Virus record (IMG/VR): IMGVR_UViG_3300028392_000043
Coordinates: 1-64,000 of that record
Direction: 5' to 3' (one strand)
From: a virus
Length of the DNA stretch: 64,000 nucleotides
The translations under genes were made by a program, and so were the position numbers. Under the pieces are notes generated by a model. The model did no database searches. It saw only the letters and a program-made list of their open reading frames with translations, and was not told the DNA's origin. Positions 1,889 through 32,551 of this stretch are shown here, piece by piece. Position 1 is the stretch's first letter. Each line of letters opens with the position of its first letter.

Positions 1889-2541
1889 TGACTATTTCGC
1901 AGTCTCGTTTTGGTAGCCAAGCGGAGGTTGGTCGTTCGCCTAATCGTAAGAATGCCAAGGATCAGCATCATTGGGGTGCTGCTGTTGGTTTAGGTGTTGC
2001 TGGTACTGGTTATGGTGCCACTCGCGCTGCGAGTGTATTGAGTAATAGTGCTGGCGCTTCTAAAGCTAAGGCTAATCAGTCTCGTGCTGGTATTCGTATT
2101 AGTCAGGGCGACGCTAATCTTGCTAGGAATCTTCAAGCAGTTGAGCAGGCTAAGTTGGCTAAGTTACGTGGTCGCAATAAAGGCCAAGCGATGTGGATTG
2201 TTGATGGTCAGGGTCGTAGGGTTAATGTTCCGGCTACTGCAGATAGTGCTTTTATGCATGGTGTTATTAATGATGTGGTTCGGGAAAGCAATAAGCATGC
2301 GCAGACTGCTAGCAGGCATGATTTGGCAACTAAAAAGTCTCGTGATGAGGCGCGTGCTCATGCTCAAAATTATGCTCGTATGAATCGTTACAGTAAGTTG
2401 GCTTCTCGTGGCGGAAAGATTGCTATTGGTACTGGCTTGCTGGGCGCGGCTGGTGCTTTGGCTCAAACTGAACATGCTCGTGGTACAGTTGGCTACAAGC
2501 GACCTACACGCGCACAATTAAGGGGACGTAATGTCAGATGA
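1888..2541 (+). CDS. Gly/Ala-rich basic protein of the head module
   Basis: 217 residues, family not recognised. It has the same construction as the preceding gene: a short polar N-terminus, a first hydrophobic Gly/Ala segment at about residues 30-52 (GAAVGLGVAGTGYGATRAAS), a long basic helical middle, and a second segment near residues 175-195 (IAIGTGLLGAAGALAQ) followed by a very basic tail. Its start codon overlaps the stop of the upstream gene and its end overlaps the portal start by 11 bases, so the three are probably translated together. It may be an internal or ejected virion protein. A membrane location is possible but not shown. Confidence 0.6.
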   Translation: MTISQSRFGSQAEVGRSPNRKNAKDQHHWGAAVGLGVAGTGYGATRAASVLSNSAGASKAKANQSRAGIRISQGDANLARNLQAVEQAKLAKLRGRNKGQAMWIVDGQGRRVNVPATADSAFMHGVINDVVRESNKHAQTASRHDLATKKSRDEARAHAQNYARMNRYSKLASRGGKIAIGTGLLGAAGALAQTEHARGTVGYKRPTRAQLRGRNVR

Positions 2542-4102
2542 TGTACGTTTGGCGGCTAGACAAACTGATGGCTTAAATGCCACGCCTGCTGATATTCAGG
2601 CTTTAGAAGAATTAAAGAATGCTTCGCCGTTTCTGGAACTGGGTACTACTGGTCTTAAGCGTGCTGGTGGCTATATTGATGAACAGTTTCTTCCGCAGTT
2701 GCGTGGGCGTAAGGCTGTTCAAGTCTTTAAGGAAATGGCTGAGAATGACCCTTTGGTTGGGTCTTTGTGGTTCACTATAGATCGTTTGATTCGTAATGTT
2801 GAATGGCGTGTTGAGCCTGCCAGTAAGTCTAAAGAAGATACTGATAATGCAAAGCTTGTTGAAACTTGTATGGATGACATGTCTCATACTTGGGATGATT
2901 TTATTTCTGAGGTTTTGTCTTGTGTGATTTATGGCTGGTCTTGGCATGAGATTGTGTACAAGCGTCGTGTTGGTCCGTGGGAGCGCGATTCTTCTAAGCG
3001 CTCTAAGTACACTGATGGTTTGATTGGCTGGCGTAAGATGCCAATTCGCGCACAGGAAACTTTGTTGCGTTGGGCGTTTGATGATACTGGTGATGTTTCT
3101 GCGATGATTCAGTTGGCTCCTCCTCGTTATGAAACTAAGGTTTTGCCTATTGAGCGTTCGTTACTGTTTCGTTATCGTCATCAAAAAGGTAATCCTGAGG
3201 GTATGTCTATGCTTCGTCAGGCTTATCGTCCTTGGTACATGAAGAAGCGCCTTGAAGAATATGAGGCTGTTGGTATTGAGCGTGACCTTGCTGGTTTGCC
3301 TGTTGTTAAGGTGCCGGCAGAGTTTTTGCGGGCTAAGCCTGGCTCTCAGCAGGCTCAAACTGTTGAGGCGTTTAAGCGTATGGTTAAGTCTGTGCGTCGT
3401 GATGAGCAAGAGGGCATTGTGTTTCCTATGGCTTATGATCAGGACACTAAGCAACCTTTGTATTCGTTTGAACTTATGGGCGGTGGCGGTGCTCGTGCTT
3501 TCAATACTGATGCAATTATTCAGCGTTATGAGCAGCGAATTTTGATGTCTGTTTTGGCTGATTTTATTATGGTTGGTCATGAGGGTGGTGGCTCTTACAG
3601 TTTGCATACTGATAAGACTGGTATTTTTCGTACTTCGCTTAACTCTATTGCTGGTTCTATTGCAGATACTTTGAACCGTTATGCTATTCCTCGGTTGTTT
3701 TCTGTTAATGGTATGAAGCCTGCTGAGTTGCCTAAGATTGTGCCTGGTGATGTTGATAGTCCAGATATTGCGCAGTTGGCTCAGTTTATGTCCGCTATGT
3801 CTAGCACTGGTGTCACATGGTTCCCAGACCCAACTATGGAGAACTTTATTCGAGATGCTGCTCGTTTGCCTAAACTTAATGAAGAGGATGAAGATCGTCG
3901 TCGTCAAATGCAGATGCGTACGGAGGCTACGCAATACGCACAAGCTAACATTGCGTATGTTCAGGCTAAGCAACAGTTGGCTCAAACTTTGATGGGTCAG
4001 CAACAACAGCAAGCGCAGCCTGGTCAGCCTGGTCAACAGGATAGTCAACAGAATGCTAGTCAACAAGAAAGTCAACAACAAAATCCTCAGCAGGGGCAGT
4101 AA
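2531..4102 (+). CDS. portal protein
   Basis: 523 residues. It resembles the portal family that includes Mu gp29 (DUF935-like): residues about 55-140 carry the typical stretch describing one round of membrane-independent alpha/beta core (NDPLVGSLWFTIDRLIRNVEW, then SEVLSCVIYGWSWHEIVYKR), and later LFRYRHQKGNPEGMSMLRQAY. Length fits a portal. Twelve copies would form the dodecameric ring at the capsid vertex through which DNA is packaged and ejected. The last 50 residues are almost pure Gln with Ser, Pro and Gly, an unusual disordered tail. A good Shine-Dalgarno (AGGGGA) precedes the ATG, inside the end of the upstream gene. It sits upstream of protease, scaffold and capsid genes as expected. 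Confidence 0.85.
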   Translation: MSDDVRLAARQTDGLNATPADIQALEELKNASPFLELGTTGLKRAGGYIDEQFLPQLRGRKAVQVFKEMAENDPLVGSLWFTIDRLIRNVEWRVEPASKSKEDTDNAKLVETCMDDMSHTWDDFISEVLSCVIYGWSWHEIVYKRRVGPWERDSSKRSKYTDGLIGWRKMPIRAQETLLRWAFDDTGDVSAMIQLAPPRYETKVLPIERSLLFRYRHQKGNPEGMSMLRQAYRPWYMKKRLEEYEAVGIERDLAGLPVVKVPAEFLRAKPGSQQAQTVEAFKRMVKSVRRDEQEGIVFPMAYDQDTKQPLYSFELMGGGGARAFNTDAIIQRYEQRILMSVLADFIMVGHEGGGSYSLHTDKTGIFRTSLNSIAGSIADTLNRYAIPRLFSVNGMKPAELPKIVPGDVDSPDIAQLAQFMSAMSSTGVTWFPDPTMENFIRDAARLPKLNEEDEDRRRQMQMRTEATQYAQANIAYVQAKQQLAQTLMGQQQQQAQPGQPGQQDSQQNASQQESQQQNPQQGQ

Positions 4103-5554: not shown

Positions 5555-8500
5555 GTGTCGTTGCTTGATGCGGTTCGTAAGGCTGTAGAGGAAGACCCTA
5601 TTGGCGGTTCGATTCTTATTGATGAAATCGTTTATTCGGTTTTGGCTGATGAGGCTGAGCAGGTTCGCCCTGCGGTTGAAAAGATGCTGTCTGTGTTTAT
5701 GGCAGAGCGTGTTGGTGTTGCTAAGCGTGCGTTAGGTCGTGCATATGTTGAGACTATGGCTAATGGTGAGTATCCTGACCCTGAAGTTCAAAAGAATGCT
5801 GAATGGATTGCGGGCATCGAGCGTTTTATTGCTTCAGATATTTCTAAAGCTGATGATCGTACTTTTGATGAGCGTCTTCATCCTCGTGGCAGTGGTGGCC
5901 GCTTTAGTGTCAAAGCACCTCCTGCGGCTGAGGTAAAAGCAGGCGCATACGTTGGTTATGCCGCTGCGCAGCATAAGTCTAAGCATAGTGCGTCTACTCA
6001 AACGCACGTTATGCATGATGGTAAGAAAAACGTTTATGCTGAAGGTATTCATCCGGATACGCAAGAACTTGTTGACCAGCATCAGTATCAGTGGGATGCA
6101 GCTAATCAGCAGGCTAATAGCATTATGGAAAGTTTTGGTCGTGATGCGGGAAAGATTAACCTTCGTATTACTGTTCAAAATAAGCATAATGACAAGTTGC
6201 GTGACATTGTTGTTCCTGGCTCTGAGGCTAAGGGTGGTCTACCGTCTGATAGCGCTTGGTCTATTAATGATGATTACAAGTCTATGAGTGTTGATGCGGC
6301 TAATTTGGATAACCCTACTGACCAAATTCTTATTGATAATAAGGTTAATGCTTATAATGTGATGGGTAATGCAGGCGGTCCAGCTTTGGCTGAATTGGGC
6401 ACTATTGATTCTTCTCGTTACACAAAACTTGGTCAGACTATGGATCGCGGTTACATGCGTTCTCAAGACAAGTCTAAGATGGGCACTTTCTTTGACCGGT
6501 TGCATGCAGGTGGTGGCATTCTTCGTGAAACTCCTGGTATGGAAAAGTATGGGCGTTTTGCGCAGTTTGTTGGTCAGACTGGTCCTGAGGCTGAAAAGTA
6601 TTTGGGGCCTTATGCTCAGCAGGCTGCGTATCGTTACCGCGGTACTGAGAAAGAACCTGATTTAGATTTGGTTAGTCAGTTTAATAGTGTCACTATGAAT
6701 GCTGTTAATGCTGTGGCTACTAACCCTAATAATACTTTGGCTATGAATCATCTTGAAAATGAAGTTTCAGGTCAGGGTGAAAAAGACGTTGTTGCTACGT
6801 CGGCTGTTTATGAAATGAATCATTTGAAGCGCACTCGTGGTGGCGAGTATACGCCAGATGAGTTGGCACTAAATGTTCGTGCTGATGTGGCGGCTCGTCA
6901 TTTGTTGAATACGTTACCGTCGGACCCTTTTGTTGCTGATTTGTCTCGCGCAGCGGGTAATGTGTTGCCGTCGCAGGGTGTCATTATTGATGCTGATGGC
7001 GATGTTGTTAGTCAGTCTGTTGGTTTTTCTGATGACCATTATTTGCCTTTTGATTTGAAGAATCTTAAGTCTTTGCGTGGCGGCCAGTATGTGCGTACTC
7101 GTCAGCAGGGTGGTTTGACTGCGGAGGATGTTTATGCGTCTATTCGTACGGGTGCGCGTATGGCTACTGTTGTTTCCAGCAGTGGTGTGTTTTCTTTAGA
7201 GTTTGACCCTAATTTCCGTGGCGCTCGCGCTAACTCTGATAAGGCTCGACAGATGGTTGACCGCTATGTCAGTATTCTTGATGCGGTTCAAAACTCTAAT
7301 TTGTACACTCAAGATATTGATCAGCGTGAAAAAGAACGTCTTCGCGGTATGGCTAACTCTATGGGCTCTACGCCAAAAGAACGCAAAGATTTGTTTGAGC
7401 ATTATGTTGACCAAGCTCGTACTGCTGGTGCGACGCTTAATGAGCAAGATTTGCAGATGCTTCATGAGGATGCCATTAAGCAGGTGGATTCTGAGGGCTT
7501 TAAGTACAAGAATGAGCGTTACAATCGTCGTGTTAATGAAGTGTTTGATGAGTTGGCTGAGCAGAAGCGTGCAGCCCGTGTTTCTCGTCTTAATCTAAAT
7601 TCAAAAGGTTATGACGCTGCTTTGCAAACTTTGCAACAGCAGTTCCCTTATTTTATTCGTTCTGTTAAGTATCAGCCTTTGACTGCTGATAAGAATGGTC
7701 AGCGTGGATTCTTGCAGTCGCTTGGTCAGTCTGGTGCTGCGGGAGCGCGTCAAAAGTTGGGCGCTAAGGATCAGGGTTATGTTAATGCTGGTGCCGGTGA
7801 TTTACGGCCTAATGTTGGTTACAAAGAGCCTAAGGAAGAAAAGACTGAGGCTGGTGCAGCGCCTAAGGAAGAAAAAGTTAGTGCAACACCTTCTGCTGGT
7901 GCAACACCTGAGACTAAAGCTAAGCCTGTTCCTAAGGCTAAGTTTTTGGGTGATTTGGAAGCATTTACTGCTGTCGCGGATAAAGAAGCATCTAAAGATG
8001 TTGAAGAGTTGGCGTCTATGTTCCGCAGTCATGACCCAACAATTCAAGGTATCCCAGGCACTACAGAGTGGTCTGTAGCAAAGGGTGCTTTTGAAACTAC
8101 TGGTGATAAACGTTTGGCTGCTAAGTATCTTTTGGCTGCTTCAAATAATGGAGAGCACGATGCTTTAGTTAAGGCTTACAAATCAGACCCTGCTGTTGTA
8201 GGCGCGGTTTTGTCTGATGAAAAAGCAGTGAAAGAGGCTTTGGCTGCTTTGTATGGTTCTGCTTGGAAGGGCGAATCTGAAGCCAGTTTTGGTATGTCGC
8301 TTGAGGATTTGCAAAACAATGTGCATTATGTGGCAGATAAAATTAACGATTCTGCTTCGTTAAAGTCTCCTTACGCACCTGCGGCTCATGGTCCTGCTGG
8401 TCTATTTTATTCAGGCGATAAGCCTCAGGAGATGGCTGAGTTGGCGTCTGTTAATGACAAGGCTGGTCTTAAAGCGATGATTAATGCTAATCCTGCGGTT

Positions 8501-9028
8501 GCCGAGATTGCGTCAGACCTTGATGGTTTGGATAACACTCAAATGAGTAAATTGGTCGCTGAGCGCGTTGCTGTGCTTAAAAAAGCTAAGGATGCTCGTA
8601 TTGGTGAGTTGTTTAGTTCTGAGGCCGCTATTGATCCGGATAAGGCTGCTGACAAGGCTTTGTCTAAAGCAGGCATTACTCCTGATGAATGGAAAGATGC
8701 GATGGGGTCTAGCACTAGTTCTCATTTTGGTACATTCCAACAGTTCTTGCCTGAAACTATTGACCAGCGTGCGCAAGCTACACAAGCTGCTTGGGGTGCT
8801 ATCTATACGTCTCAGTTGATGGATAAGTTAGAGGAGTTGAAAGCATCTTCTGCTGAGGCAGGTGGTGTTGAGGCCCCAAAAGCGGAGCCCCCAGCGGGGG
8901 AGTTAGCGAAAAGCCAGCAGGGGTACTCGTCCCGACAGGTGCTCATCGCGAAGAATCATTGGCTGGCCCAAGAGGTGGCAGTGAGGCGCGAGGCGGGTCT
9001 ACCACTGGTGCCGATACGGCAAAAGTAG
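5555..9028 (+). CDS. very large minor head protein (frame-0 product)
   Basis: 1157 residues from a GTG start with a good AAGGGG ribosome site. The N-terminal about 105 residues are helical and resemble the region that precedes the HPR-type linker in phage minor head proteins. At residue 109 stands HPRGSGGRF, a motif repeated twice in the gene at 9847. The rest is soluble, mixed alpha/beta and not recognised; a Lys/Glu/Pro/Ala-rich linker follows near residues 755-800. Close to the 3' end a slippery heptamer CCCAAAA (8875-8881) and a GC hairpin could shift ribosomes into the -1 frame and append the AAA+ ATPase encoded next; the full fusion would be 1424 residues. Without shifting, the protein ends in a 48-residue extension rich in charged residues. 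Confidence 0.75.
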   Translation: MSLLDAVRKAVEEDPIGGSILIDEIVYSVLADEAEQVRPAVEKMLSVFMAERVGVAKRALGRAYVETMANGEYPDPEVQKNAEWIAGIERFIASDISKADDRTFDERLHPRGSGGRFSVKAPPAAEVKAGAYVGYAAAQHKSKHSASTQTHVMHDGKKNVYAEGIHPDTQELVDQHQYQWDAANQQANSIMESFGRDAGKINLRITVQNKHNDKLRDIVVPGSEAKGGLPSDSAWSINDDYKSMSVDAANLDNPTDQILIDNKVNAYNVMGNAGGPALAELGTIDSSRYTKLGQTMDRGYMRSQDKSKMGTFFDRLHAGGGILRETPGMEKYGRFAQFVGQTGPEAEKYLGPYAQQAAYRYRGTEKEPDLDLVSQFNSVTMNAVNAVATNPNNTLAMNHLENEVSGQGEKDVVATSAVYEMNHLKRTRGGEYTPDELALNVRADVAARHLLNTLPSDPFVADLSRAAGNVLPSQGVIIDADGDVVSQSVGFSDDHYLPFDLKNLKSLRGGQYVRTRQQGGLTAEDVYASIRTGARMATVVSSSGVFSLEFDPNFRGARANSDKARQMVDRYVSILDAVQNSNLYTQDIDQREKERLRGMANSMGSTPKERKDLFEHYVDQARTAGATLNEQDLQMLHEDAIKQVDSEGFKYKNERYNRRVNEVFDELAEQKRAARVSRLNLNSKGYDAALQTLQQQFPYFIRSVKYQPLTADKNGQRGFLQSLGQSGAAGARQKLGAKDQGYVNAGAGDLRPNVGYKEPKEEKTEAGAAPKEEKVSATPSAGATPETKAKPVPKAKFLGDLEAFTAVADKEASKDVEELASMFRSHDPTIQGIPGTTEWSVAKGAFETTGDKRLAAKYLLAASNNGEHDALVKAYKSDPAVVGAVLSDEKAVKEALAALYGSAWKGESEASFGMSLEDLQNNVHYVADKINDSASLKSPYAPAAHGPAGLFYSGDKPQEMAELASVNDKAGLKAMINANPAVAEIASDLDGLDNTQMSKLVAERVAVLKKAKDARIGELFSSEAAIDPDKAADKALSKAGITPDEWKDAMGSSTSSHFGTFQQFLPETIDQRAQATQAAWGAIYTSQLMDKLEELKASSAEAGGVEAPKAEPPAGELAKSQQGYSSRQVLIAKNHWLAQEVAVRREAGLPLVPIRQK
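8875..8900 (+). promoter_or_regulatory. predicted -1 programmed ribosomal frameshift site
   Basis: C CCA AAA at 8875-8881 lies in the frame of the 5555 gene as codons CCA AAA, so tandem slippage gives CCC AAA in the -1 frame. Six bases later CCCCC (8888-8892) and GGGGG (8896-8900) can form a 5-bp all-GC hairpin with an AGC loop. The -1 frame is open from 8872 through the AAA+ ATPase stop at 9828. The residues encoded between the shift and the ATPase are Gly/Ser/Pro-rich, as expected of a linker. Heptamer, spacing and stem are seen directly; the function is inferred. Confidence 0.7.
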
Positions 9029-9828
9029 AGCGTATTAGTTCTGACCTTCATTCAATGATTGGTATGAATGAAGTGGCTAATGAAGTGGATAGTCTTGTTG
9101 CTACTGGTTTGATGAATCAGAAGCGCGAAGAAGCTGGCTTGCCTGTGTCTAATAACGCTAAGCATTTGGTGTTTGTTGGTGAGCCTGGTACTGGTAAAAC
9201 GACTGTGGCTAAAAAGTTGGCAAAGTTGTATAACGCGGCTGGTTTGTTGCCAAAGGATACTGTTGTTGAGACTGACCGTAGTAAATTGGTTGGTAAGTAT
9301 GGCAATAACATTTCTGATCGTGTTCGTAAAGAGTTTGAGTCTGCTCGTGGCGGTGTTTTGTTTGTTGATGAGGCTTACACTCTTGCGGATGATGCTTTTG
9401 GTAAAGAAGCTGCTACTCAGTTGATGAAACTTATGGAGGAACATAAGGATGATACTGTGGTTATTGTTGCTGGTTATCCGGGTGAGATGGGTAAGTTTAT
9501 GGCGCTTAATCCTGGTATGAAGTCTCGTTTTTCTAAGACTGTTAATTTTCCTAACTATTCTCATAAGGAGCAGGTACAGATTCTTGAGCAACGTATGGCT
9601 AGGCATAAGGATGTGGTTGATAGTCCACAGACTGCTAAGGCTTTGAATGAGGCTGTTCGTGTGGCATCTGCTGAAGGTGGTAATGGCCGTGCTATGGAGC
9701 GTTTGCATGCCAGACTTGAAGAGGCAAGAAATGTGCGTTTGAGTCGTAAGCCTGATTTGTCTACTGAAGATTTGTCTGTGTTTACTGTTGATGATGTAAA
9801 CTCGGCTATCGGGGCTTCTAGCTCTTAG
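8959..9828 (+). CDS. CbxX/CfqX-type AAA+ ATPase, likely made as a frameshift fusion
   Basis: The frame encodes one AAA+ module of the CbxX/CfqX group, the group that contains Rubisco activase CbbX and the N-terminal ATPase of type VII secretion EccA. Counting from the TTG at 8959, Walker A GEPGTGKTT lies at about residue 74, Walker B VLFVDEA at about 133, a sensor strand VVIVAGY follows, then an arginine-finger-like KSRF and a C-terminal lid with EGGNGRAMERL. The TTG has no evident ribosome site, and an ATG at 9055 has none either, while the frame is open upstream to 8872 just past a slippery site. The enzyme is therefore probably produced as the C-terminal part of the large head protein. It could remodel or unfold head or ejected proteins; the substrate is unknown. 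Confidence 0.85.
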   Translation: MAGPRGGSEARGGSTTGADTAKVERISSDLHSMIGMNEVANEVDSLVATGLMNQKREEAGLPVSNNAKHLVFVGEPGTGKTTVAKKLAKLYNAAGLLPKDTVVETDRSKLVGKYGNNISDRVRKEFESARGGVLFVDEAYTLADDAFGKEAATQLMKLMEEHKDDTVVIVAGYPGEMGKFMALNPGMKSRFSKTVNFPNYSHKEQVQILEQRMARHKDVVDSPQTAKALNEAVRVASAEGGNGRAMERLHARLEEARNVRLSRKPDLSTEDLSVFTVDDVNSAIGASSS

Positions 9829-9846: not shown

Positions 9847-12303
9847 GTGAATCGTTGGTGGGCCAATCCGGAGTTATCTGCAGAGATTTTAAAGTCTGTT
9901 GATGATTCGGATGTTGTCAATGGTGTTGGTGTGGCTGTTTTGGGTTATCACGGGCTTGCTATGGGTGTTTTAAAGCCTTTAGTTACTCAGACACTAGTTG
10001 ATACTCATACTGTGCGTAAGGCGCTTTTACAGGTTGATTTACAGCCTATTGCTAAGGCTTTGTCTGAGGCAACTAAACCTGTTATGGGTGATGCTTCTGA
10101 ACGTTATGGCAAATTGTTGGCTGATGCTATTCATGAGAAAGCCGTGGCTTCTACTGAGCGTTTATTGCATACGTGGACAAATAACGGAATGCCTTGGCCT
10201 AACGCTATTGAACGTGCTGCTGAGGTGCATGGTGTTCCTGTTGAGCGTCTGGGGCGTTATGCGTCTGTTATGAAAGCGGCTACTGTTAATCCGCATATTC
10301 GTGCTGATTATGCTGATCGCGAGTTGATGACTTATGCATCTGTTATGGGTAGTCGTGAGTCTTTGATTTCTTCTGAGTTAATTTCTAAGCAAAAGTCTGA
10401 GTTTGAAGAGTTGCACCCTAGGGCTTCTGATGGTCGTTTTACTGATAAGAGTGAAGTTCTTGATTTGCGTGCCAAGTTGAATAAGATGAAAAAGTTTAAG
10501 GCTGCTCGTGAGGTTGGTTCGCAAGTCAAGCGTGGTACTTTTGATTTTGCTAGGTCTAAGACCGCTGGTGAGTCTCGAACTAAGATTGCGCCTCGTACTA
10601 AAGTGGAGCCTAAAAAAATGGAGGTGCAAACTACTGGCGATACTTTTAAAACTAGTTTTAGGCATTCTTTTCGCAAGCCTGATTTTAAACTAAACGACCC
10701 TAGTGGCGATTGCCCTACGGTTCCAACGTTTTTTGTTAATGGTGACGTGTATATTCCTGTTAATGCTTCTTTACTTAATCAAATTAAAAAGCAGAGTAAT
10801 CTTTTTACTGCGTGGGATGTTAAGAATCATGATGGTAATGGTGAACTTGAGGCTTTTGGCAAAGATGGCTTTAGTGACTATGTTGACATACGTGGTTTAA
10901 AAAATATTGTTAATGAAGGCACTGTTCTTCTAAAATGTAGTTACACGCCTGTTCACAAGAATCGTGCTGATGTTTTGACTAATTCTAGCGGTAATCCGCA
11001 TACTGATGATTTTAAGTGGAGTACTGTTGCACCTAAAGCTACATTTAGACTTGTTACTGGTGGCCCAGAGCCTCGCAGTTTAATGTCTTTGATTAATGCC
11101 GGCAAGCATAAGTTGCACAGTTATTCTGACGATTTTGAAGACGATTTTGTACCTAATACTGATGATTTTAAAGTTTATGAAATCGCTTTGGTTAATGATG
11201 ATCCTGATTTGTGGGAAGAAGATATTAGTAAAAATTTGTCAGATGAGGAGCGTGAGGTTTTTAACGTAGAACATCCTCGTGCTGTTAATGGTCAGTTTAC
11301 TGATAAGAATGTTACGTCTCTTAAGGCTAAGTTGGATAAGCGCAATAAGATGGCTCGCCAGCGTGAGATTGGGCAAAAAGCTAAGCAGGGTAATTTTGAT
11401 TTTAAAGAGTCGCGTCAGAATCAAGCTGATGTTCGTCAGAAGGTTTCTGCTTTGCGCCAAGAGCCAGTTTTTGCTGAAACTAAATTTAAGCAAAGTTTTA
11501 AAACTAATTTTAAAATGTTTTATAGGGATGAAACACATGACCCTATTAAGTTTGGTGACAGTTGGGCTGTGATTGTTCCTTACGGTATGTCTCCTATGCC
11601 TGATTTGTGGCCATGGTTAAATGAAAAAGCATTTAGCGAGCGTTCGTATAAAAAAGAAACTCACCCTAAAGGTCCTACAGAAATAGTTTCAGGAAATCTT
11701 GAGGATGATAGAACTGCTTTAAAAGTGTTTAAAAATACTCATGGCAGCAGTTTGTTAATACCTAGAGAACAACGCACGTCTCCCGGTAGGGCTTTGTCAC
11801 CAGTTGTTGGAAATATTATTAATCATGCTGATCGCAGAGAGCCTGAAAAAATTATTAAAGTTACAGGTACTGGTGGTAATAGCGAAGATACTGGTGAGTG
11901 GTCTTTTGAAACACCTGAGCAGGCGCTTGAAGCGGCTAATAATAGTAAGCAGCGTTTTAGTCTAAGTAATTCATTTTTAATGTGGCAACCGGAAGCTTTG
12001 ATTAATGAAAACGGCGAATATGATGCTATTTTGGCTGGGTACAACCCAGAAGAGAAATATCAACTTATTGTAGGTAGTTATAGTGACCTTTGGGAAGCGC
12101 ATTATATTGCTAACGAAAATCCTGAAGAGTTTGCTGAAAGAGTAAAAATTGTGCCTTCTGATAAGGACGTAAGTAATTTGCAGGAGTTTTTATCACTTAG
12201 TGATAGCGATGAGATTATTGATGAAGTTAATTCGGCTATTCGCGATAAGGGTACTAACCCGCCAATAGAATTGTATGAAATTAAAGTTATGCCACCTTGG
12301 TAG
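9847..12303 (+). CDS. minor head protein with tandem duplication and two HPR motifs
   Basis: 818 residues from GTG. The first 180 residues are helical and resemble the head-morphogenesis type N-terminus. Two long related segments follow, each opening with HPR-x3-G-x-F-TDK (residues 190 and 476), then a basic helix with KxKFK or KRNKMAR, a GxFDF motif, and FKTSFRHSF or FKQSFKTNF. They are therefore an internal duplication with a period of about 286 residues. The C-terminal part of each copy is a mixed alpha/beta domain of unknown function. The same HPR motif occurs in the gene at 5555, so these proteins share a linker or processing element. Related phage proteins combine such elements with toxin or ADP-ribosyltransferase domains, but no catalytic motif is recognised here. 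Confidence 0.65.
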   Translation: MNRWWANPELSAEILKSVDDSDVVNGVGVAVLGYHGLAMGVLKPLVTQTLVDTHTVRKALLQVDLQPIAKALSEATKPVMGDASERYGKLLADAIHEKAVASTERLLHTWTNNGMPWPNAIERAAEVHGVPVERLGRYASVMKAATVNPHIRADYADRELMTYASVMGSRESLISSELISKQKSEFEELHPRASDGRFTDKSEVLDLRAKLNKMKKFKAAREVGSQVKRGTFDFARSKTAGESRTKIAPRTKVEPKKMEVQTTGDTFKTSFRHSFRKPDFKLNDPSGDCPTVPTFFVNGDVYIPVNASLLNQIKKQSNLFTAWDVKNHDGNGELEAFGKDGFSDYVDIRGLKNIVNEGTVLLKCSYTPVHKNRADVLTNSSGNPHTDDFKWSTVAPKATFRLVTGGPEPRSLMSLINAGKHKLHSYSDDFEDDFVPNTDDFKVYEIALVNDDPDLWEEDISKNLSDEEREVFNVEHPRAVNGQFTDKNVTSLKAKLDKRNKMARQREIGQKAKQGNFDFKESRQNQADVRQKVSALRQEPVFAETKFKQSFKTNFKMFYRDETHDPIKFGDSWAVIVPYGMSPMPDLWPWLNEKAFSERSYKKETHPKGPTEIVSGNLEDDRTALKVFKNTHGSSLLIPREQRTSPGRALSPVVGNIINHADRREPEKIIKVTGTGGNSEDTGEWSFETPEQALEAANNSKQRFSLSNSFLMWQPEALINENGEYDAILAGYNPEEKYQLIVGSYSDLWEAHYIANENPEEFAERVKIVPSDKDVSNLQEFLSLSDSDEIIDEVNSAIRDKGTNPPIELYEIKVMPPW

Positions 12304-12350: not shown

Positions 12351-13064
12351 ATGGATTCGTTAGAGATTGTTAAGTCGCTTCATAAGGTTGATCCTGGCTT
12401 TGTTGATTTGTGCAAAACTTTGTTTGGCGATGCTGTTTATCCTGAGGCCATTTGGGAGTATTTGTACACTCCTGAGGGTATTTCTAAGATGGGTCCAGAG
12501 CCTTCAGAGCTAAATACTTCTTCTAGTAATAAGCGTGGCCGTCTTGTTCCACAGGAGCGTACTCCGCAGGTGCCTCGCGTTAAGGTTCCACCTAAGCATT
12601 CTCATAAGGGCGAGCAGGTTGATAATACTGACGCTATGAGTAAGTCTGATGATGATTTTGACATTACGTGGGCTGGTGAGTTTGCTAAGTCTGATGAGGA
12701 TAAGCGTCAAGTTTTTGGTTGGGCTTCTATTGTTGAGGTTGATGGTCGCCCGGTTGTTGATCGTCAGGGCGATTGGATTACTCCTGAAGAGATTGAGAAG
12801 GCTGCATACCAGTATGTTCTTAATTCTCGTAAAGCAGGTCATCAGCATAAGCGTGATGGCGACCAGCCGTTTCATGCCGGTGACATGATTGAGTCTTTTG
12901 TTATGACACCTGAAAAGGTTGAAAAGATGGGTTTGCCTGACGATACTCCTATTGGTTGGTGGGTTGGCTACAAGATTCATGATGAGGATGCTTGGCAGAA
13001 AGTTAAGAAGGGCGAAGTTACTGGCTTTTCTATTCATGGTCGCGGTAAGCGTAAAGAAGTCTAA
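12351..13064 (+). CDS. prohead protease, XkdF type (peptidase S78_2)
   Basis: 237 residues. Residues about 110-235 match the XkdF-like serine protease family: KRQVFGWASIVEVDGRPVVD, then DRQGDWITPEEIEKAAYQ, a His-rich AGHQHKRDG, the diagnostic stretch AGDMIESFVMTPEKVEKMGL, GWWVGYKIHDE, and the terminal GFSIHG. The His in the AGHQH region and the Ser of GFSIHG are the likely catalytic residues. The N-terminal 100 residues are a variable, Pro/Lys-rich region. The enzyme would mature the prohead by cleaving scaffold and capsid proteins. It has its own GGAG ribosome site and lies upstream of scaffold and capsid genes, as is usual. Confidence 0.85.
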   Translation: MDSLEIVKSLHKVDPGFVDLCKTLFGDAVYPEAIWEYLYTPEGISKMGPEPSELNTSSSNKRGRLVPQERTPQVPRVKVPPKHSHKGEQVDNTDAMSKSDDDFDITWAGEFAKSDEDKRQVFGWASIVEVDGRPVVDRQGDWITPEEIEKAAYQYVLNSRKAGHQHKRDGDQPFHAGDMIESFVMTPEKVEKMGLPDDTPIGWWVGYKIHDEDAWQKVKKGEVTGFSIHGRGKRKEV

Positions 13065-16723: not shown

Positions 16724-17731
16724 ATGCCAAGTCCATCCCAGTCCGATCTGCATGTTAATGTGCCGTTGACCAATGTGTCGATTGCCTACATGCAGTCTGC
16801 AGATGCATACATTGCTGACAAGGTTTTCCCTAAGGTTCCTGTCAAGAAGCAATCTGACCTTTATTGGAAGTACAGCAAGAGCGATTGGCGTCGTACTGAC
16901 GTTGCTCGTCGTGCTCCTTCTACAGAGTCACCTGGCGTTGGTTGGAATACAACCACCGACCAGTACTTTGCTCATGTCTACGCTGTTCACAAGGACATTG
17001 ATGACCAGCTACGCGCTAATGCTGATAGTAACTTTGTGCTTGACCGCGATAGCACCGAGTTCATCACTAATCAGCTTCTTTTGAAGCGTGACGTTGACTG
17101 GGCTGCTAAGTACTTCACTACTGGCGTTTGGGACAATGACCTTGTTGTTGGTGCTTCTGCTAACACTAATGGTTTCACTGCTCCGGCTGCTAAGTGGTCT
17201 GATGCTGGTTCTGACCCTATTGGTGACGTTGCTCGTGCGGTTATTGCTTTCCGTAAGAACACTGGTTTTGCGCCTAACATCATGGTTATTGGTGCGGATG
17301 TTATGACTGCTCTCAAGCAACATCCAGACATCATTGACCGTATCAAGTACACTCAGCGCGGTATCGTGACTGAAGACTTGATTGCTACTATGTTTGGTGT
17401 TAACGAGTTGTACACGTCGTACGCTTCACAGGCTACTGGTCCACAGATTCCAGATGCTAAGACTCAGGATGCTGCTGCTTCATACAGTTTCATTAATGAT
17501 TCTAAGTCTGCTCTGTTGTGCTACGCTCCTTCAGCACCTAGCTTGATGACTCCATCTGCTGGTTACACGTTCACTTGGAACGGCTACCTCGGTGGTAACT
17601 CTGAAGGTATTAAGATTAAGCGTTTCCGTATGGAGCATATTGCTTCTGATCGTATCGAGGCAGAAATGACTTACGATATGAAGACGGTTGCTACTGACCT
17701 TGGTGCTTTCTTCACGGGCGTGGTTGCATAA
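16724..17731 (+). CDS. major capsid protein, HK97 fold
   Basis: 335 residues. Typical features are an N-terminal arm (VSIAYMQSADAYIADKVFP), KKQSDLYWKYSKSDWRR, an alpha helix with RDVDWAAKYFTTGVW, the strand APNIMVIGADVMTALKQHPD, IDRIKYTQRGIVTEDLIATMF, and the C-terminal strand EGIKIKRFRMEHIASDRIEAE, which match the HK97-type capsid family common in actinophages. A strong ribosome site (AGGAG, 16711-16715) and C-ended codons suggest high expression. The order scaffold, decoration, capsid supports the call. Confidence 0.88.
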   Translation: MPSPSQSDLHVNVPLTNVSIAYMQSADAYIADKVFPKVPVKKQSDLYWKYSKSDWRRTDVARRAPSTESPGVGWNTTTDQYFAHVYAVHKDIDDQLRANADSNFVLDRDSTEFITNQLLLKRDVDWAAKYFTTGVWDNDLVVGASANTNGFTAPAAKWSDAGSDPIGDVARAVIAFRKNTGFAPNIMVIGADVMTALKQHPDIIDRIKYTQRGIVTEDLIATMFGVNELYTSYASQATGPQIPDAKTQDAAASYSFINDSKSALLCYAPSAPSLMTPSAGYTFTWNGYLGGNSEGIKIKRFRMEHIASDRIEAEMTYDMKTVATDLGAFFTGVVA

Positions 17732-24497: not shown

Positions 24498-27400
24498 GTG
24501 TTTAATGAAGATGTAACAGTTGATTTTAATGCCAATGTAGGCCCTTACACGTCTTCTCTTGGTCAAGCTTTGGCTATGACTAATCAGTTTAGTGCTGCTA
24601 ACGATATTGGCATTGCTAAACTTGGTAATCTTAATAAGATTTCGTTGGCTCTTGTTCAGTCAACGGCTATGTTTACTGGCGCTAATAAAATTGCTGTTCA
24701 GCAGGCTGCAGCGTATGAGCAAAAACTTTCTGGCATTAATACTATGGCTAAGATTGCCGGTAAGCAGTTTGATGATCTTGGCAAAGTAACTATGAAGTTT
24801 GCTCGCCAATTTCCTATTGGTATGGATAAAGCCATTGAAACTACTAAGGCTTTAGCAACTTCTGGTGTTGTGACCACTAAACAGGTTCAAAAACTCGGTA
24901 CTGAGTTTATTAAACTTCAAGCTGCTTCGGGCGAGTGGGGTTCTGGCATGACCCAGGACATGCTTCAGGTGACTCGTTCGTTTGGTAATTCTACTAATAT
25001 GATTAAAGGTTTTAGTGATTCTTTAGTCACTGTTACTACTAAATATGGCGCTTCGGCTTCTTCTGTTTTGGCTTTTTCTAAAGCTATTGCACCTATTGCT
25101 TCTGTTGTAGGCATTGGTCAGGCTTCTGTGTTTGGTTTGTCTACGGCTATGTCTCGCCTTGGCGAAGATGGTTATCGTTCTGCTAACGCATTTAACAAGG
25201 TCCTTTTGGATATGAACCGGTCTATTCGTACTGGTTCACCTGAAATTCGTGAGTATGCCAAAGTCTTAAACATGTCTTCAGATTCTTTAGGCAATTTGTT
25301 TAAGAGCGATCCTACTGAAATGATTTTGCGCTTTACTAGTGCTATTAATAAACAAGGCGCTCAGGCTGTCACTACGCTTGATAATTTGGGTCTTGATGGT
25401 GTTAATACTTTTAAGTCTTTGCAGGCTTTGTCTAAGACTGGTGATTTGCGTCAAATTGTTGGTGATGCTACTAGTGCTTATAATAATGGTTCTGCTAATG
25501 CTGGTGCACAGACTGCTTTGGGTGGCGTTAATGACCAGTTAACTAAAATGCAAGAAACTATGTCGCAGACTACTGCTGAGGCAGGTAAACCTTTCTTGTC
25601 ATTTTTGGGTAGCGTTTTGGGTGTTTCTAATGGAATTGCTAGTGGCGTACACGGGCTTGTTTCAGCTCTTGCAGGCCTTGGACCTTTACTTCCTGTGTTG
25701 TCTACTTTATGGACTATTTTAAAAGGTATTGCTGTTATTCAATTGGGCCGTCTTGGTCTTAATATGTTTAAGAATTCTAATTTTGGACAACAATTTTTTG
25801 CTGGTCGAGCACAGGCTTTAAACGGTGAGGCTTTTGGACCTAATGCTTTAACTACTGCTGGTGCGCGTGTGGGTCAGGGTTTTGGCACTATGTTTGGTGG
25901 TAAAGATGAGACTGGCGAACGTGTTAGCCGAATGAGTCGTTTAATGGGCAGCACTAAGTGGTTATCACAAGCGTATGTTAATGCTAACGCTAATCTTTAC
26001 AATGCTGATCCTAGTAATTCACGTATGCGTACTGATGCGGGTATGGCTCGCGCTAATAACAAACTTCATTTACAAAACAATCTTCCATTGATGTCTGCTG
26101 CTGAACAGGAAGCACATTATGGTAAAGATGCTAACAATGTGATTCGCCCAGCCACTTTATCAACCATGCCAGCCGGCGGAGTTCCTGGCGGTCAATACGG
26201 TTGGCGTGAAATTTCTGCTGCCAACAAAATGATGTATCAAGATATTAAAGCTACTTCTGGAAGTTTGGGTGCGTTTCGTGCTGCTGCTGGATATACTGCT
26301 AAAGGTGTTGCTGAGTTAGGTAAGGCTACGTTTAAGAATGCTGGTGCTTACTTGCGCCAAGGATCTATTACTGGGCTTGATGAGGCAGGCGGTACTATTC
26401 GCGGTGGTGCTCGTTTTGGCGCTTTAGGCAGCATGCTTTCGGGCATGGGTCCAATGCTTGGGATTATGGCCACTATGGCCGCTATTGGTTTCGTTAAAAA
26501 TGCGCAAAAAATTAGCGCAGAGCGTATGGCTGGTACTGGTTTTGGCGATGCTTATTCTGTTTATAATAATTTTGCAACTAAAGCAAATTTGCCTACTCAA
26601 AACGGTACTCTTTCTACTGGTATTGATAGTACGATGGACTGGGCAACTTATTACGCTAAGTCTGCAAAAACTGTTAGGCAAGCAATTACTTTAGGCCAAG
26701 ACGTTAATTTAAACGCACTACGACCAAATTACAAAACTTCTGCAGACATCAATATTGATGGTGATAATAAAAATCCAAATGATTTAGCGGCTTATGTACG
26801 CTTAATGGCTGGACCTAGAGCAAACCCTGAAGTTATTAGTCGTTTAATGCAAGATTTAACTGCTAAAACTAAAGACACTAATTTAACTGCTCAAGTTGGC
26901 ATAAAAGCTTTTGCTCCGTCGCAAGTTAATAATTCAACTTCTGGATTGTATCAAAGTGCTTTTCAGGCTGCTGGCGATTCAATGGGGCATACTGACGAAG
27001 CAACTTGGCGACAATCTGCGTATGGTGGAACAATTGGTCAGTTAATTAGGCAAGAAGCTACTACAAATATTAACAATACTCTTTTAAAATTTGGTTCCGG
27101 TACTCAAAAAATGGCTACCTTGCAGCAGGCTGCACAAGTTTTGCGCGGTGCTAGAGAATATGGTGTAAAAAATGGTGGCCTTGGCAATAATGGTTACGTT
27201 GTTACGCAAGGTATGGAAGCACTAAAAATTGTTAGCGAATTGCTTGGAGTAAAATATAACACAAGCAATGTAACCAATGCATTAGGTATGCAGCGAACTC
27301 TTAATAATGCGCAAGGTAACGACCCACTAAAGTTCTTTTTTCAATATTCTCAAGGTGGTTTAGAAGGCGTAAAAAACAACGAATTTTATAAATATTACAA

Positions 27401-30299
27401 AACTTTGATCGCTAAAGGCGGTGGAGATTTTGAAAATCCTGTTTATAAAAAAGGTAAGCGTATAGTTTCGCCTGAAGAAAAGTATTCTAAAAAAGCCAAT
27501 CAAGATATTGGTTCTGGCTTATTTGCTGCTGAGGATTACGCATGGTCAAAAAGTATGACTATTTTAGATATTTTTAGTAATCCAACAATGTTTAATGCCA
27601 TTAAAGATAAAGTTGTAAAACTTGCTATTAATGCTTCTATTGCGCAAAATGATGTTAGTGCGCAAAATGCTTTTTCTCAAGCTATTTCTACTACTGCTTT
27701 AAATAGCACAAAAAGTGGCATGGCTGCTGTTACTGAACTGTTACAGCAATTAAAAAATCCTAATCTTGCAGCAAGTAGTGCACAGGCCTCAGCTATTCTT
27801 AACGCCTACAATATGACTGCTTCTGTTCGTTCTGTTGAGCAAGCTGGTCAGAGCGGTCTTTCAAATATTAACCAAAATATTAAAACAGGTGTTACCGCTG
27901 CTAACACTGTATTGCCTACTGGTGCTACACAAGAACAGCAAAGTGTTTTGGGGCAAGAAAGAGCAACTGGTCAGCAGGCTGTTTCTCAAATGATGTCTTT
28001 TGCTAAGCAAATTGCTAATTTGAATCATGAGATGGCTAAGGGTGCTGAGGACATGGCTATCAATGTTACTCGTACTCAATTTAAGTTTAATCAAAGTATT
28101 TTGCGTGGTACTCAAGATTTTGCTAAAAGTTTTTATAATGTTTATGAGCGTGTTGGTGGTCAGCGTGTTGCTTCGACCGGTGCTTTGATTACTAATCTTA
28201 AAGAGCAAAGTACTCTTTTGAATCGTCAAATGAAAAATGTTACTAAGTTGAAAAAACTTGGTTTGTCTGATGATGCTATTCGTACTATGGATTTGATGAA
28301 TCCTGCTAATGCTCAGCAAACGGATCAGCTTGTTAATGATATGACACGTAATGTGTCTTTAATTAATCAAGCTAATAAAGAAGTCGCTAATCGTATGGAT
28401 TTATCCGGTCAGCATGAGACTAGCCCAAATAATACGGCTTATAAACGCGCTAAAGAAGACTTTGATTTGCAAATGAAATATATGAGCGAGGATTTTGAAA
28501 AAGCGGCTAAGCGTGCTTATAACGATTTGTTTAATTTTGGGGAAAACATTTCGGTTGCTGGCAGTGGTGTAACAAACAAATTGGCTAAGGCACTTTCTGG
28601 CATGCCTGATGTTGCTGGTAAAGCCGCTAAAGCTGCTGGTCAAGCTATTTTAGACGGTTTACAAACATCACTTAAAGGTTTAACTGGCAATGAGCAATTC
28701 AGTTTAGTTAATGGGTTTTTATCTGCTCCTAGAAAAGCACCAAATACTCCAACTGCTCCTGGTTCTGGTGGAAGCGGTTCTGCTGGTTTAACTGGTGGTA
28801 GTGGTGGCGGTGGCGGTGGTGGTGCAAGCGGTGTTATGGGTGCACCGGGTAAAATTACTAATCGTTTACCAAAAAATACTGGTGTAAGCGGTAATGGAAC
28901 TGCTGGCGATTATAAAGGCCAGATGGTTATGGATAAAGATGGTGTTTATCAAGTAAGTAATCCTATGAATAACGGTAAATATCAAAAAATTGTTAAAGAT
29001 AATGGCAAGACTAAGCGTGGAAAATTTCTTGATGCTGTATTTAGTGAAATTGGCCAAGACTATCGCCTTGGTGGCGGTCATGATTTAGATGATATCGGCG
29101 GATTTGATTGTTCTGGTCTTGTGGAGTTTGCAGCAAAGCATGCTGGAATAAATGCAGGTACAGGAACTGCAGCAACTTTGTATAATCAATACACCAAACA
29201 TATTATGCAAAAAGATGCTATTGCCGGGGATTTAGTGTTTTATAACAATAACCGTAGTCAAGCGGGTATGGATCACGTTGGTATTTATATTGGGCACGGA
29301 ATGATGATTGATGCTCCTGCTCCGTACAAAAAAGTTCGAGCCGAACCTGTTGTTTTTTCTGGTTCTGGTAAACCATTTTTTGGTCGCTTAAATGGTTTAC
29401 CTGTTGATGATTCTGATCTTGTTAAAGCTGCTACTGGTGGACATATTAAGGGTCCTGGTTCTAAGACTTCTGATTCTATTCCTGCTCGTCTTTCTGATGG
29501 TGAGTATGTTATTAAAGCGGATACTGTCGATAAGTACGGTGTAGATTTTTTCCACAATCTTAATGAGCAAAAGTTTAAAGATGGTGGCTCTGTAGGAAAC
29601 TGGTGGGATAATGACAATAATCCTATTGGCAAGAATAGTTTAAAGAAACTGATTGCTAGGGCTGGTTTTAAAGGTCATGAAGCAATGATGGCTTGGGCAA
29701 TTGCAATGGCGGAGTCTCATGGGTATACAAATCTTTTAAACAATACGGATAGCACTGGTGATTTGTCTTATGGTCTATGGCAAATTAATATGATTCATAA
29801 TCTGGGTCCTGAGCGACGTAAGAAGTATCATTTGTCTTCTAACAATGATTTATATGATCCTTTTACAAATGCAAAAATTGCTTATGATATTTCTAAGGGT
29901 GGTAAGTATTGGGCTGATTGGGGTTCTTACACTTTAGATCACCATTATTTAGATTTTTTAAATTACAAAAATGGTAATCCTGATAAAGCAGAAAAGTATA
30001 AGGATTTGAGCAGTAATGTTCCAATTATGACTGCTGGTCCCGCGCCAAAAGCCCATAATTGGTGGGATGATTGGATTCCTCATTTTAGTCGAGGTGGTTA
30101 TGTAGGAAATTCTGATGCTGTTAACTCTCGTATGTCTAGATTTGCCACAAATACTACTAACACTACAAGTCATAGCTATGATCACTCGACTCAAATTCAT
30201 GGTCAGATTACTGTTCAGGCTAATGACCCTAATGAGTTTATGCGTAAGATTAATGCTCAGCAACGTCGTCAGCGTTTATTATCACCGGTAGGTAACTAA
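24498..30299 (+). CDS. tape measure protein with NlpC/P60 and lysozyme-like domains
   Basis: 1933 residues from GTG with an AAAGGA site. Residues about 60-370 match the TP901-type tape measure core (FPIGMDKAIETTKALATSGV, FGLSTAMSRLGEDGYRSANA). Two hydrophobic segments follow near 380-420 and 645-665. A Gly/Ser linker precedes an NlpC/P60 endopeptidase domain with GFDCSGLVEFA (Cys1538), MDHVGIYIG (His1593) and a likely third residue His1600. Next is a lysozyme-like transglycosylase domain with AMAESHG (Glu1739) and GLWQIN. The protein fixes tail length and carries two cell-wall hydrolases for DNA entry. Confidence 0.85.
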   Translation: MFNEDVTVDFNANVGPYTSSLGQALAMTNQFSAANDIGIAKLGNLNKISLALVQSTAMFTGANKIAVQQAAAYEQKLSGINTMAKIAGKQFDDLGKVTMKFARQFPIGMDKAIETTKALATSGVVTTKQVQKLGTEFIKLQAASGEWGSGMTQDMLQVTRSFGNSTNMIKGFSDSLVTVTTKYGASASSVLAFSKAIAPIASVVGIGQASVFGLSTAMSRLGEDGYRSANAFNKVLLDMNRSIRTGSPEIREYAKVLNMSSDSLGNLFKSDPTEMILRFTSAINKQGAQAVTTLDNLGLDGVNTFKSLQALSKTGDLRQIVGDATSAYNNGSANAGAQTALGGVNDQLTKMQETMSQTTAEAGKPFLSFLGSVLGVSNGIASGVHGLVSALAGLGPLLPVLSTLWTILKGIAVIQLGRLGLNMFKNSNFGQQFFAGRAQALNGEAFGPNALTTAGARVGQGFGTMFGGKDETGERVSRMSRLMGSTKWLSQAYVNANANLYNADPSNSRMRTDAGMARANNKLHLQNNLPLMSAAEQEAHYGKDANNVIRPATLSTMPAGGVPGGQYGWREISAANKMMYQDIKATSGSLGAFRAAAGYTAKGVAELGKATFKNAGAYLRQGSITGLDEAGGTIRGGARFGALGSMLSGMGPMLGIMATMAAIGFVKNAQKISAERMAGTGFGDAYSVYNNFATKANLPTQNGTLSTGIDSTMDWATYYAKSAKTVRQAITLGQDVNLNALRPNYKTSADINIDGDNKNPNDLAAYVRLMAGPRANPEVISRLMQDLTAKTKDTNLTAQVGIKAFAPSQVNNSTSGLYQSAFQAAGDSMGHTDEATWRQSAYGGTIGQLIRQEATTNINNTLLKFGSGTQKMATLQQAAQVLRGAREYGVKNGGLGNNGYVVTQGMEALKIVSELLGVKYNTSNVTNALGMQRTLNNAQGNDPLKFFFQYSQGGLEGVKNNEFYKYYKTLIAKGGGDFENPVYKKGKRIVSPEEKYSKKANQDIGSGLFAAEDYAWSKSMTILDIFSNPTMFNAIKDKVVKLAINASIAQNDVSAQNAFSQAISTTALNSTKSGMAAVTELLQQLKNPNLAASSAQASAILNAYNMTASVRSVEQAGQSGLSNINQNIKTGVTAANTVLPTGATQEQQSVLGQERATGQQAVSQMMSFAKQIANLNHEMAKGAEDMAINVTRTQFKFNQSILRGTQDFAKSFYNVYERVGGQRVASTGALITNLKEQSTLLNRQMKNVTKLKKLGLSDDAIRTMDLMNPANAQQTDQLVNDMTRNVSLINQANKEVANRMDLSGQHETSPNNTAYKRAKEDFDLQMKYMSEDFEKAAKRAYNDLFNFGENISVAGSGVTNKLAKALSGMPDVAGKAAKAAGQAILDGLQTSLKGLTGNEQFSLVNGFLSAPRKAPNTPTAPGSGGSGSAGLTGGSGGGGGGGASGVMGAPGKITNRLPKNTGVSGNGTAGDYKGQMVMDKDGVYQVSNPMNNGKYQKIVKDNGKTKRGKFLDAVFSEIGQDYRLGGGHDLDDIGGFDCSGLVEFAAKHAGINAGTGTAATLYNQYTKHIMQKDAIAGDLVFYNNNRSQAGMDHVGIYIGHGMMIDAPAPYKKVRAEPVVFSGSGKPFFGRLNGLPVDDSDLVKAATGGHIKGPGSKTSDSIPARLSDGEYVIKADTVDKYGVDFFHNLNEQKFKDGGSVGNWWDNDNNPIGKNSLKKLIARAGFKGHEAMMAWAIAMAESHGYTNLLNNTDSTGDLSYGLWQINMIHNLGPERRKKYHLSSNNDLYDPFTNAKIAYDISKGGKYWADWGSYTLDHHYLDFLNYKNGNPDKAEKYKDLSSNVPIMTAGPAPKAHNWWDDWIPHFSRGGYVGNSDAVNSRMSRFATNTTNTTSHSYDHSTQIHGQITVQANDPNEFMRKINAQQRRQRLLSPVGN

Positions 30300-31231: not shown

Positions 31232-32551
31232 GTGGCTTATGTTGTTGCGGTTGCGTATTATGATTTTTCTTCAGCAAAACCTGCTGTAAAAAGTTCTTAC
31301 GATTTTACTTTTGGCTCTTATCCTAATGCTGTTATTGGGCCTATTAATGTTGGCGATAATGTAACTATTCGGTCTGTTAATGATTCAAACAAATACATGT
31401 TTGGTTATGTTGATCATAGCGTTGGCACTACCAGCACTACTATTGTTTACACTATTCGTATCGATGGCTTATCGATAGATATCGCTAATGCAAGTTCAAT
31501 TAGTGATACTTACTGGAGTATTGATACTACTTTTTCTGTCGATAGCGCTTTACCTTCTGATGAGTCTTTGTCTGTAACAAATGCTGACGCTTCAATTACG
31601 GTTCATCCTAAGATTTATTTTCAGCCTAATTTAATTATGCAAAAGTCTGCAAAATTTGAAACTGACCCTTATTTTATTGTTGCTGGTTATCCTATTGCGG
31701 CTAGTTCTTTTGGGGTAAACATTTACTCTACTGCTTCATTAAATGCTCCTACTAAGTTAGTTAATGTTTTTAAGTATTCAGATGTTAATACACTTGCTAA
31801 TGATCGTTGGATACCTATTCTGGCGCAGTTTGATAAAACTGTTACTAACAATGTTACAAAGATTAAAAAATGGTTTCCGTGGAAATCTAACGGTTCGCAA
31901 GGAGCTTTGGTTGCTTCTGCTGACAATCCAACTTTGGTTAATGATGTACAGATAAATAATGGCACTGGTATACAAAACACTCAAACCAACGAGCACACAA
32001 TTAAGTTTAGTAATGGGCAATATCTTGTAACTACTAGCCAGCCACTTGTTCCAGGTAGCAACAATAGTTCAACTTTTTTTACAATGATGTCTGTAGTGTT
32101 TTTACAGCCGCCTACTAAAAGTACTTGGTATACCGTTATGGGTGCTGGTGGCACTAAATACACATCTAAAGACCCTTTAATAAATGTAAAATATTACAAA
32201 AATAGTGTTTTAAGGCTTTGTTTGGGTAGAACTATTATTTCAGAAATTCGTATTGATGCTTCTAGATTTAATTCTTTTAAGCCTATTATTATTGCGGTTA
32301 GTGTTTCTGCTACTGATGGTGTTGCGCAATTTGCTGTGTTGGATTCGCAATTGCATTATGAAAAAGTTTCTTTGCCTTACAAACATCCTTTTGATGCTAA
32401 TTTTTATTTAGGTGGTGCGCCTGTTTCTGATTTAAATATAGGTGCAAACATGTATGTTTTAGAGCATAATCAGTATTACGACCAATTATCTCAAGAGGAT
32501 TTAAGTGACAGAATGTTGTTGCTTAATCGAATTTATGGAGTTACTTTATGA
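31232..32551 (+). CDS. minor tail protein with lectin-like C-terminus
   Basis: 439 residues from GTG, beta-rich. The C-terminal about 180 residues look like a concanavalin/laminin-G type jelly roll (PIIIAVSVSATDGVAQFAVLD, FYLGGAPVSDLNIGANMYVL) ending with a helix QLSQEDLSDRMLLLNRIYG, a pattern of lectin-like domains in tail proteins. It may bind cell-surface glycans. ATGA overlap with the next gene. Confidence 0.55.
   Translation: MAYVVAVAYYDFSSAKPAVKSSYDFTFGSYPNAVIGPINVGDNVTIRSVNDSNKYMFGYVDHSVGTTSTTIVYTIRIDGLSIDIANASSISDTYWSIDTTFSVDSALPSDESLSVTNADASITVHPKIYFQPNLIMQKSAKFETDPYFIVAGYPIAASSFGVNIYSTASLNAPTKLVNVFKYSDVNTLANDRWIPILAQFDKTVTNNVTKIKKWFPWKSNGSQGALVASADNPTLVNDVQINNGTGIQNTQTNEHTIKFSNGQYLVTTSQPLVPGSNNSSTFFTMMSVVFLQPPTKSTWYTVMGAGGTKYTSKDPLINVKYYKNSVLRLCLGRTIISEIRIDASRFNSFKPIIIAVSVSATDGVAQFAVLDSQLHYEKVSLPYKHPFDANFYLGGAPVSDLNIGANMYVLEHNQYYDQLSQEDLSDRMLLLNRIYGVTL

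Follow-up and report, generated by a model that had tools for sequence, protein, structure and literature searches.

Programmed frameshifting and CbxX ATPases are each already known. In phage structural genes, most known cases of frameshifting concern tail chaperones, together with a small number of major capsid proteins. Among bacterial genes, dnaX uses a Shine-Dalgarno (SD)-like element, a slippery heptamer of the X_XXY_YYZ type and a hairpin to generate long and short forms (tau/gamma) of an AAA+-bearing protein, and both geometries have been reported, in different bacteria (PMC5009743). A conserved frameshift at an A_AAA_AAR site is also present in chlD/bchI, the gene of an AAA+ family subunit of magnesium chelatase (PMC5009743). 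The same three elements as in dnaX recur in the viral locus described here, for which a long and a short form of an AAA+-bearing protein are likewise predicted.

Two overlapping frames and the signal between them

The window analyzed comprises the first 64,000 bases of a viral record of 105,652 bases and contains, at the locus of interest, the following features:

5555..9028, + strand: giant capsid-region protein, the unshifted 0-frame product; ORF with GTG start, 1157 aa
8857..8867, + strand: SD-like stimulator GGCAGGTGGTG, with an anti-SD duplex peak just 5' of the slippery site in 16/16 loci
8869..8871, + strand: TGA stop of the -1 frame, which sets the 5' limit of any shift
8875..8881, + strand: slippery heptamer C CCA AAA, in phase (GAG GCC CCA AAA GCG)
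8875..9028, + strand: dual-coded overlap, with a conserved 0-frame tail (..KNHWLAQEVAVRREAGLPLV..) and a -1 linker with an LVPTG motif
8881..9828, + strand: -1-frame (trans-frame) portion of the fusion, 315 aa following residue 1109
8888..8900, + strand: stimulatory hairpin CCCCC-AGC-GGGGG, after a 6-nt spacer (8882-8887)

The initial annotation had proposed a -1 frameshift at this junction, and its ORF coordinates and product lengths (1157 and 1424 aa) were reproduced exactly; all of its numbers were right. The first 1109 residues are common to both products, and the predicted length of the fusion is 1109 + 315 = 1424 aa. The -1 ORF is open from 8872 to 9828, that is, up to the end of the ATPase, as had been claimed, and it opens two codons / three bases 5' of the heptamer. 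It begins with the Gly/Ser/Pro-rich linker that had also been described, which is followed from about 9028 by the CbxX-type AAA+ ATPase. The heptamer lies exactly in frame in the 1157-codon ORF, the base after it is a G (8882) that is invariant among the shift sites, and the GC hairpin (stem CCCCC 8888-8892, loop AGC, GGGGG 8896-8900) does follow at the 6-base spacer. By itself the hairpin of the window is modest (z = -1.26 against shuffles), and its significance comes from the comparison among relatives, not from the window alone. The upstream SD-like element is a third component of the signal that was absent from the initial annotation; together with heptamer and hairpin it makes this a signal of the dnaX type.

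The overlap, which ends with the 0-frame stop TAG at 9026-9028, was noted earlier to be GC-rich, and its GC content is indeed 0.60-0.70 in 8850-9000 as compared to 0.34-0.56 around it. A substitution-phase test on the overlap involved few changes and was only suggestive. Since the unshifted C-terminal tail (..LPLV/LPFV..) is conserved across the frameshift clade, the short form is probably no mere by-product. In loci L012 and L013 the linker motif GxLVPTG occurs twice in the -1 frame from 7986 (EPKQGLLVPTGSKLP and EPKQGALVPTGSSLE), the two repeats differing from each other mostly synonymously; the window has a single copy.

The earlier identification of the ATPase as a CbxX-type AAA+ protein is borne out by a match to PF00004 (3e-16) and by EccA1 (2.5e-38) and CbbX (1.3e-35) as its nearest solved relatives. 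For AAA_lid_6 (PF17866), the score is 21.6 bits in the window, against a cut-off of 24.3, and 37.6 bits in L036, a distant relative. Walker A, Walker B and the arginine finger are intact in all ATPases compared, and the pore-loop aromatic is Tyr in nearly all of them and Phe in L064/L065; L050 has His.

Relatives, and a case of reversed geometry

Close copies (84% and 100%) were found in viral contigs, followed by more distant ones, and the most conserved 92 residues of the giant protein led to 80 viral loci with homologues. All members are uncultured bacterial viruses known from metagenomes. A separate downstream ORF for a CbxX-type ATPase is present in 19 loci, corresponding to 14 diverged lineages, and in all 19 it is in the -1 frame relative to the giant ORF, which it overlaps by 109-529 bases; neither a +1 nor a free-standing arrangement was encountered among them. 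The octamer CCCAAAAG is in phase in 19/19 of these loci, and an in-phase heptamer is found beyond them in L036 and L066. The distance from the opening of the -1 frame to the heptamer is 3-39 nt in most of the loci whose ATPase has an ORF of its own, and any shift is thereby confined to that stretch; in L052, L053, L061 and L062 it is 81-366 nt, and the shift point is therefore less sharply bounded. Each of the 18 shift sites tested has C_CCA_AAA in phase, and the other 20,295 in-frame positions of these ORFs have none.

The conservation of heptamer and hairpin, which the initial annotation had suggested checking in relatives, extends to all relatives with a separate ATPase ORF, each of which keeps the heptamer in phase, has its ATPase in the -1 frame and carries a hairpin at an unchanged distance. 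Averaged over the 14 lineages, the folding energy of 30-nt segments has its minimum (-13.1 kcal/mol) at +6 nt, compared to a baseline of about -6. The hairpins of different lineages are unrelated in sequence (CCCCC-AGC-GGGGG; GGCTCCAGTGG..; GATGGC-GAAAA-GCCATC; AGCGGCC-AACA-GGCCGCT), but their position is constant, with a spacing of 5-9 nt 3' of the heptamer, and it is thus structure and position that are kept, not sequence. Just 5' of the site, SD-like stretches (GGTGGTGA, GGGGAGGC and similar) are present in 16/16 loci, with a mean anti-SD pairing of -9.3 as compared to about -2 in flanking windows. The thresholds for SD-like element and hairpin were passed by 15/15 shift sites and by 24 of 2250 random in-frame sites (p about 1e-10 each).

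These data bear on two explanations that dispense with ribosomal frameshifting. The homopolymer run at the site (CCCC AAAA, CCCCC, GGGGG) might point to a sequencing or assembly indel, or the gene might have been broken by mutation; however, the -1 arrangement recurs in 19 loci from many independent metagenomes and peptides are conserved in both frames of the overlap, so that this reading, of negligible probability, is already refuted by the relatives. Transcriptional slippage would be expected to give the same products, but it usually needs long A or T runs, whereas the site has only four A, and both the SD element and a hairpin spacing fixed at 5-9 nt are characteristic of a ribosomal process, which makes slippage extremely unlikely.

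The distant relative L036, whose contig is complete (79 kb, terminal repeat of 127 bp), carries giant protein and ATPase in one frame, as a single ORF of 1241 aa. Its junction retains GCC CCA AAA G, the upstream SD-like GCGGAGGA and, at 6 bases, the hairpin GCCCCC-GATCA-GGGGGC, which belongs to the most stable 0.1% of windows in the part of the ORF examined. The CCA of the site is unique among 76 Pro codons, and its AAA is one of 2 among 83 Lys codons. Reading in the -1 frame (CCC AAA AGC TGA) meets a stop after one codon and is predicted to yield a protein without ATPase; a shift would thus end before the ATPase, so that two products would be retained while the frames exchange their roles. 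At the level of sequence, this inverted geometry, one example only, shows what appears to be selection on having both products. The giant protein of L036 falls in a clade otherwise without ATPase, and its ATPase clusters with those of the frameshift loci (support 88); the module may either have been transferred or have been lost elsewhere.

In the sister clade of 31 sequences the giant protein lacks the ATPase, and the site is absent in all except L078; a single branch (support 100) separates the site-bearing sequences from these 31. L078 has an in-phase CCCAAAAG at 2006 that contains its only AAA codon among 46 Lys codons, together with the SD-like GAGGAGGG and a hairpin of -17 kcal/mol; the site lies deep inside the ORF, 969 bases before its end, and the -1 frame is open for 69 codons. 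In L066 (11758-12345), SD, CCCAAAAG and hairpin are all present, and the -1 extension of about 193 codons is not an AAA protein and gave no match in Pfam; here the partner in the frameshift seems to be exchangeable, or else a relic. A match to GGGCCCC in L093 was judged to be due to chance. Neither homology to the giant protein nor an equivalent site was found for the CbxX proteins of Adler and of the human gut.

The ATPase might also be a separate protein, translated from a start within the overlap or through re-initiation downstream of the 0-frame stop, the heptamer being incidental. TTG 8959 is common to the window and L008, and L053 and L055 have a -1-frame GTG with fair SD energies (-7.5 and -6.2), which speaks for a start of its own. 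Yet this TTG, the sole start 5' of the domain in the window, has an SD energy of -1.0 kcal/mol, compared to -7.8 for the giant gene's own start and -6.4 kcal/mol for the next gene. In 9 of 15 loci there is no ATG, GTG or TTG 5' of the domain in its frame, and most others have weak sites; the first ATG of the ATPase is in most cases some 24 nt into the conserved first helix and has SD energies near 0 to -2, and those of neighbouring genes are mostly -5 to -9. No conserved start or ribosome site for the ATPase was found in the 15 loci, in agreement with the earlier statement that it lacks a good start. A separate start would also leave unexplained the conserved octamer, SD and hairpin as well as the single-frame fusion of L036, and we consider it very unlikely.

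Given the site, its phase, the stimulators, the co-inheritance with the ATPase and the two geometries, the frameshift is near certain on sequence grounds, and a dnaX-like programmed -1 frameshift very probably yields two products, of 1157 and 1424 aa. The SD-like stretch and the hairpin would pause the ribosome on C CCA AAA, where two tRNAs would re-pair as CCC AAA in the -1 frame. A fraction of the ribosomes would then continue into the ATPase to give the 1424-aa fusion, and the remaining ones would make the 1157-aa protein, which ends in a conserved C-terminal tail of its own, so that the ratio of the two forms would be set.

The giant protein and the possible role of its fusion

The function of the giant protein is approached here through its gene neighbourhood and its model, for which the following features are relevant:

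2531-4102: portal, upstream of the giant gene
6542..7822, + strand: core of the giant protein with the highest conservation (residues 330-756), modelled confidently
12351-13064: XkdF-type head protease, downstream of the giant gene
16724-17731: major capsid protein (phrog_1005, 7e-88)

The initial annotation had called it a giant head protein. Its location between portal and head protease agrees with this name, but the major capsid protein is another gene. Portal, protease and capsid protein of the window are homologous to those of YuA-like phages, in which a MuF-like 'head morphogenesis' gene occupies the giant gene's place. No MuF sequence domain was detected in the giant protein, and profile comparison with YuA-like head morphogenesis proteins gave no convincing match. 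From its gene position, the giant protein is likely a minor head, portal-vertex or ejected protein.

The core model (pLDDT 86.4, pTM 0.83) and the model of the whole protein had no fold match in the PDB, and a BFVD search returned one uncharacterised homologue and marginal matches, one of them labelled as a minor capsid protein. There was no match in Pfam and only a weak one, to an unknown family, in PHROG. No relatives were found in INPHARED phages with the proteins of the window, L038 or L118 as query, the match of the L082 protein there being limited to 26 residues of Streptomyces phages, nor were any found in PLSDB plasmids or GTDB species genomes.

The gene that follows in the window (9847-12303, 818 aa) encodes two copies of a segment starting HPR..(D/N)G(R/Q)FTDK, and the giant protein holds a similar HPRGSGGRF; this is possibly a shared virion-targeting element. 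Further downstream are a tape-measure-like protein of 1933 aa with NlpC/P60 and SLT lysozyme-like domains (24498-30299) and, beyond it, a 966-aa protein with a CBM_5_12 carbohydrate-binding module (32548-35448). G000 (1-105652) and IMGVR_UViG_3300027749_000047 each contain one phage region twice, as diverged copies (about 83-86% nt) separated by about 67-68.5 kb, and thus two joined sibling genomes, either as a real tandem or through an assembly join.

As to function, the procapsid would recruit the giant protein, probably to a place close to the portal, and the ratio of the two products would limit how many AAA+ domains each procapsid receives, in keeping with a single hexamer or a few of them. 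The limited fusion copies might then assemble their AAA+ domains as a hexameric unfoldase, for which a role in head assembly, maturation or protein ejection is proposed tentatively. Somewhat more doubtful is the full reading of an AAA+ unfolding motor built into the viral head or portal vertex, its stoichiometry fixed by ribosomal frameshifting. To our knowledge, a packaged AAA+ motor of that kind has not been described for tailed phages.

The main functional rival accepts the frameshift and regards the fusion as a virion-carried effector, the giant protein serving as packaging and injection carrier and the AAA+ domain acting in the new host. Giant multidomain proteins of capsid clusters (polyvalent, MuF) have been proposed as injected effectors (PMC5512222), and L066 has a non-ATPase -1 partner swapped in; however, no other effector-like domain was found, and the clade retains one and the same ATPase type, whereas effectors turn over rapidly, so that we hold an effector to be unlikely.

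The three-part signal, conserved over deep divergence, links an unclassified capsid-region family to a CbxX AAA+ motor and raises the testable question of a phage head gene's need for a sub-stoichiometric unfoldase. If the reading as an AAA+ motor is true, the need for both forms would be strong enough for a distant relative to keep them with the frameshift reversed. Since standard gene callers will miss the fusion, the annotation is corrected here.

Comparison with known systems

The two geometries of dnaX are paralleled by the window and L036. The dnaX heptamer is A_AAA_AAG, whereas it is C_CCA_AAA here; the ATPase of the window lies in the shifted part, and the gene is one of a viral capsid region, not of a clamp loader. 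The chlD/bchI case differs from the window in its A_AAA_AAR site and in concerning a metabolic enzyme. With T7 gene 10A/10B and the major head protein of Lactobacillus phage A2, the locus shares a -1 shift near the 3' end of a head-region gene that gives a minor extended form; there, it is the major capsid protein itself that is extended, and not by an ATPase, whereas here the capsid protein is a separate gene. Lambda gpG/gpGT is similar as a minor -1 fusion at a morphogenesis gene in a fixed ratio, but it precedes the tape-measure gene and makes a tail chaperone without ATPase, while the giant gene, between portal and protease, is not directly 5' of the tape-measure gene.

CbbX and ESX-1 EccA1, members of the CbxX/CfxQ AAA+ family, share the ATPase domain; they have their own gene starts and act on Rubisco or in type VII secretion. 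We know of no CbxX/CfxQ member that is joined to a viral protein by frameshifting. The MuF and polyvalent proteins of phages are likewise large proteins of the portal-protease interval, the lack of a detectable MuF domain setting the giant protein apart from the former. The survey of polyvalent proteins contains no mention of CbxX, AAA+ or frameshifts (PMC5512222), and nothing was found in the literature on a CbxX/AAA+ frameshift in phages. As far as the searches reached, the new elements are the joining of frameshifting with a CbxX ATPase on a capsid-region protein, the depth of its conservation and the reversed geometry.
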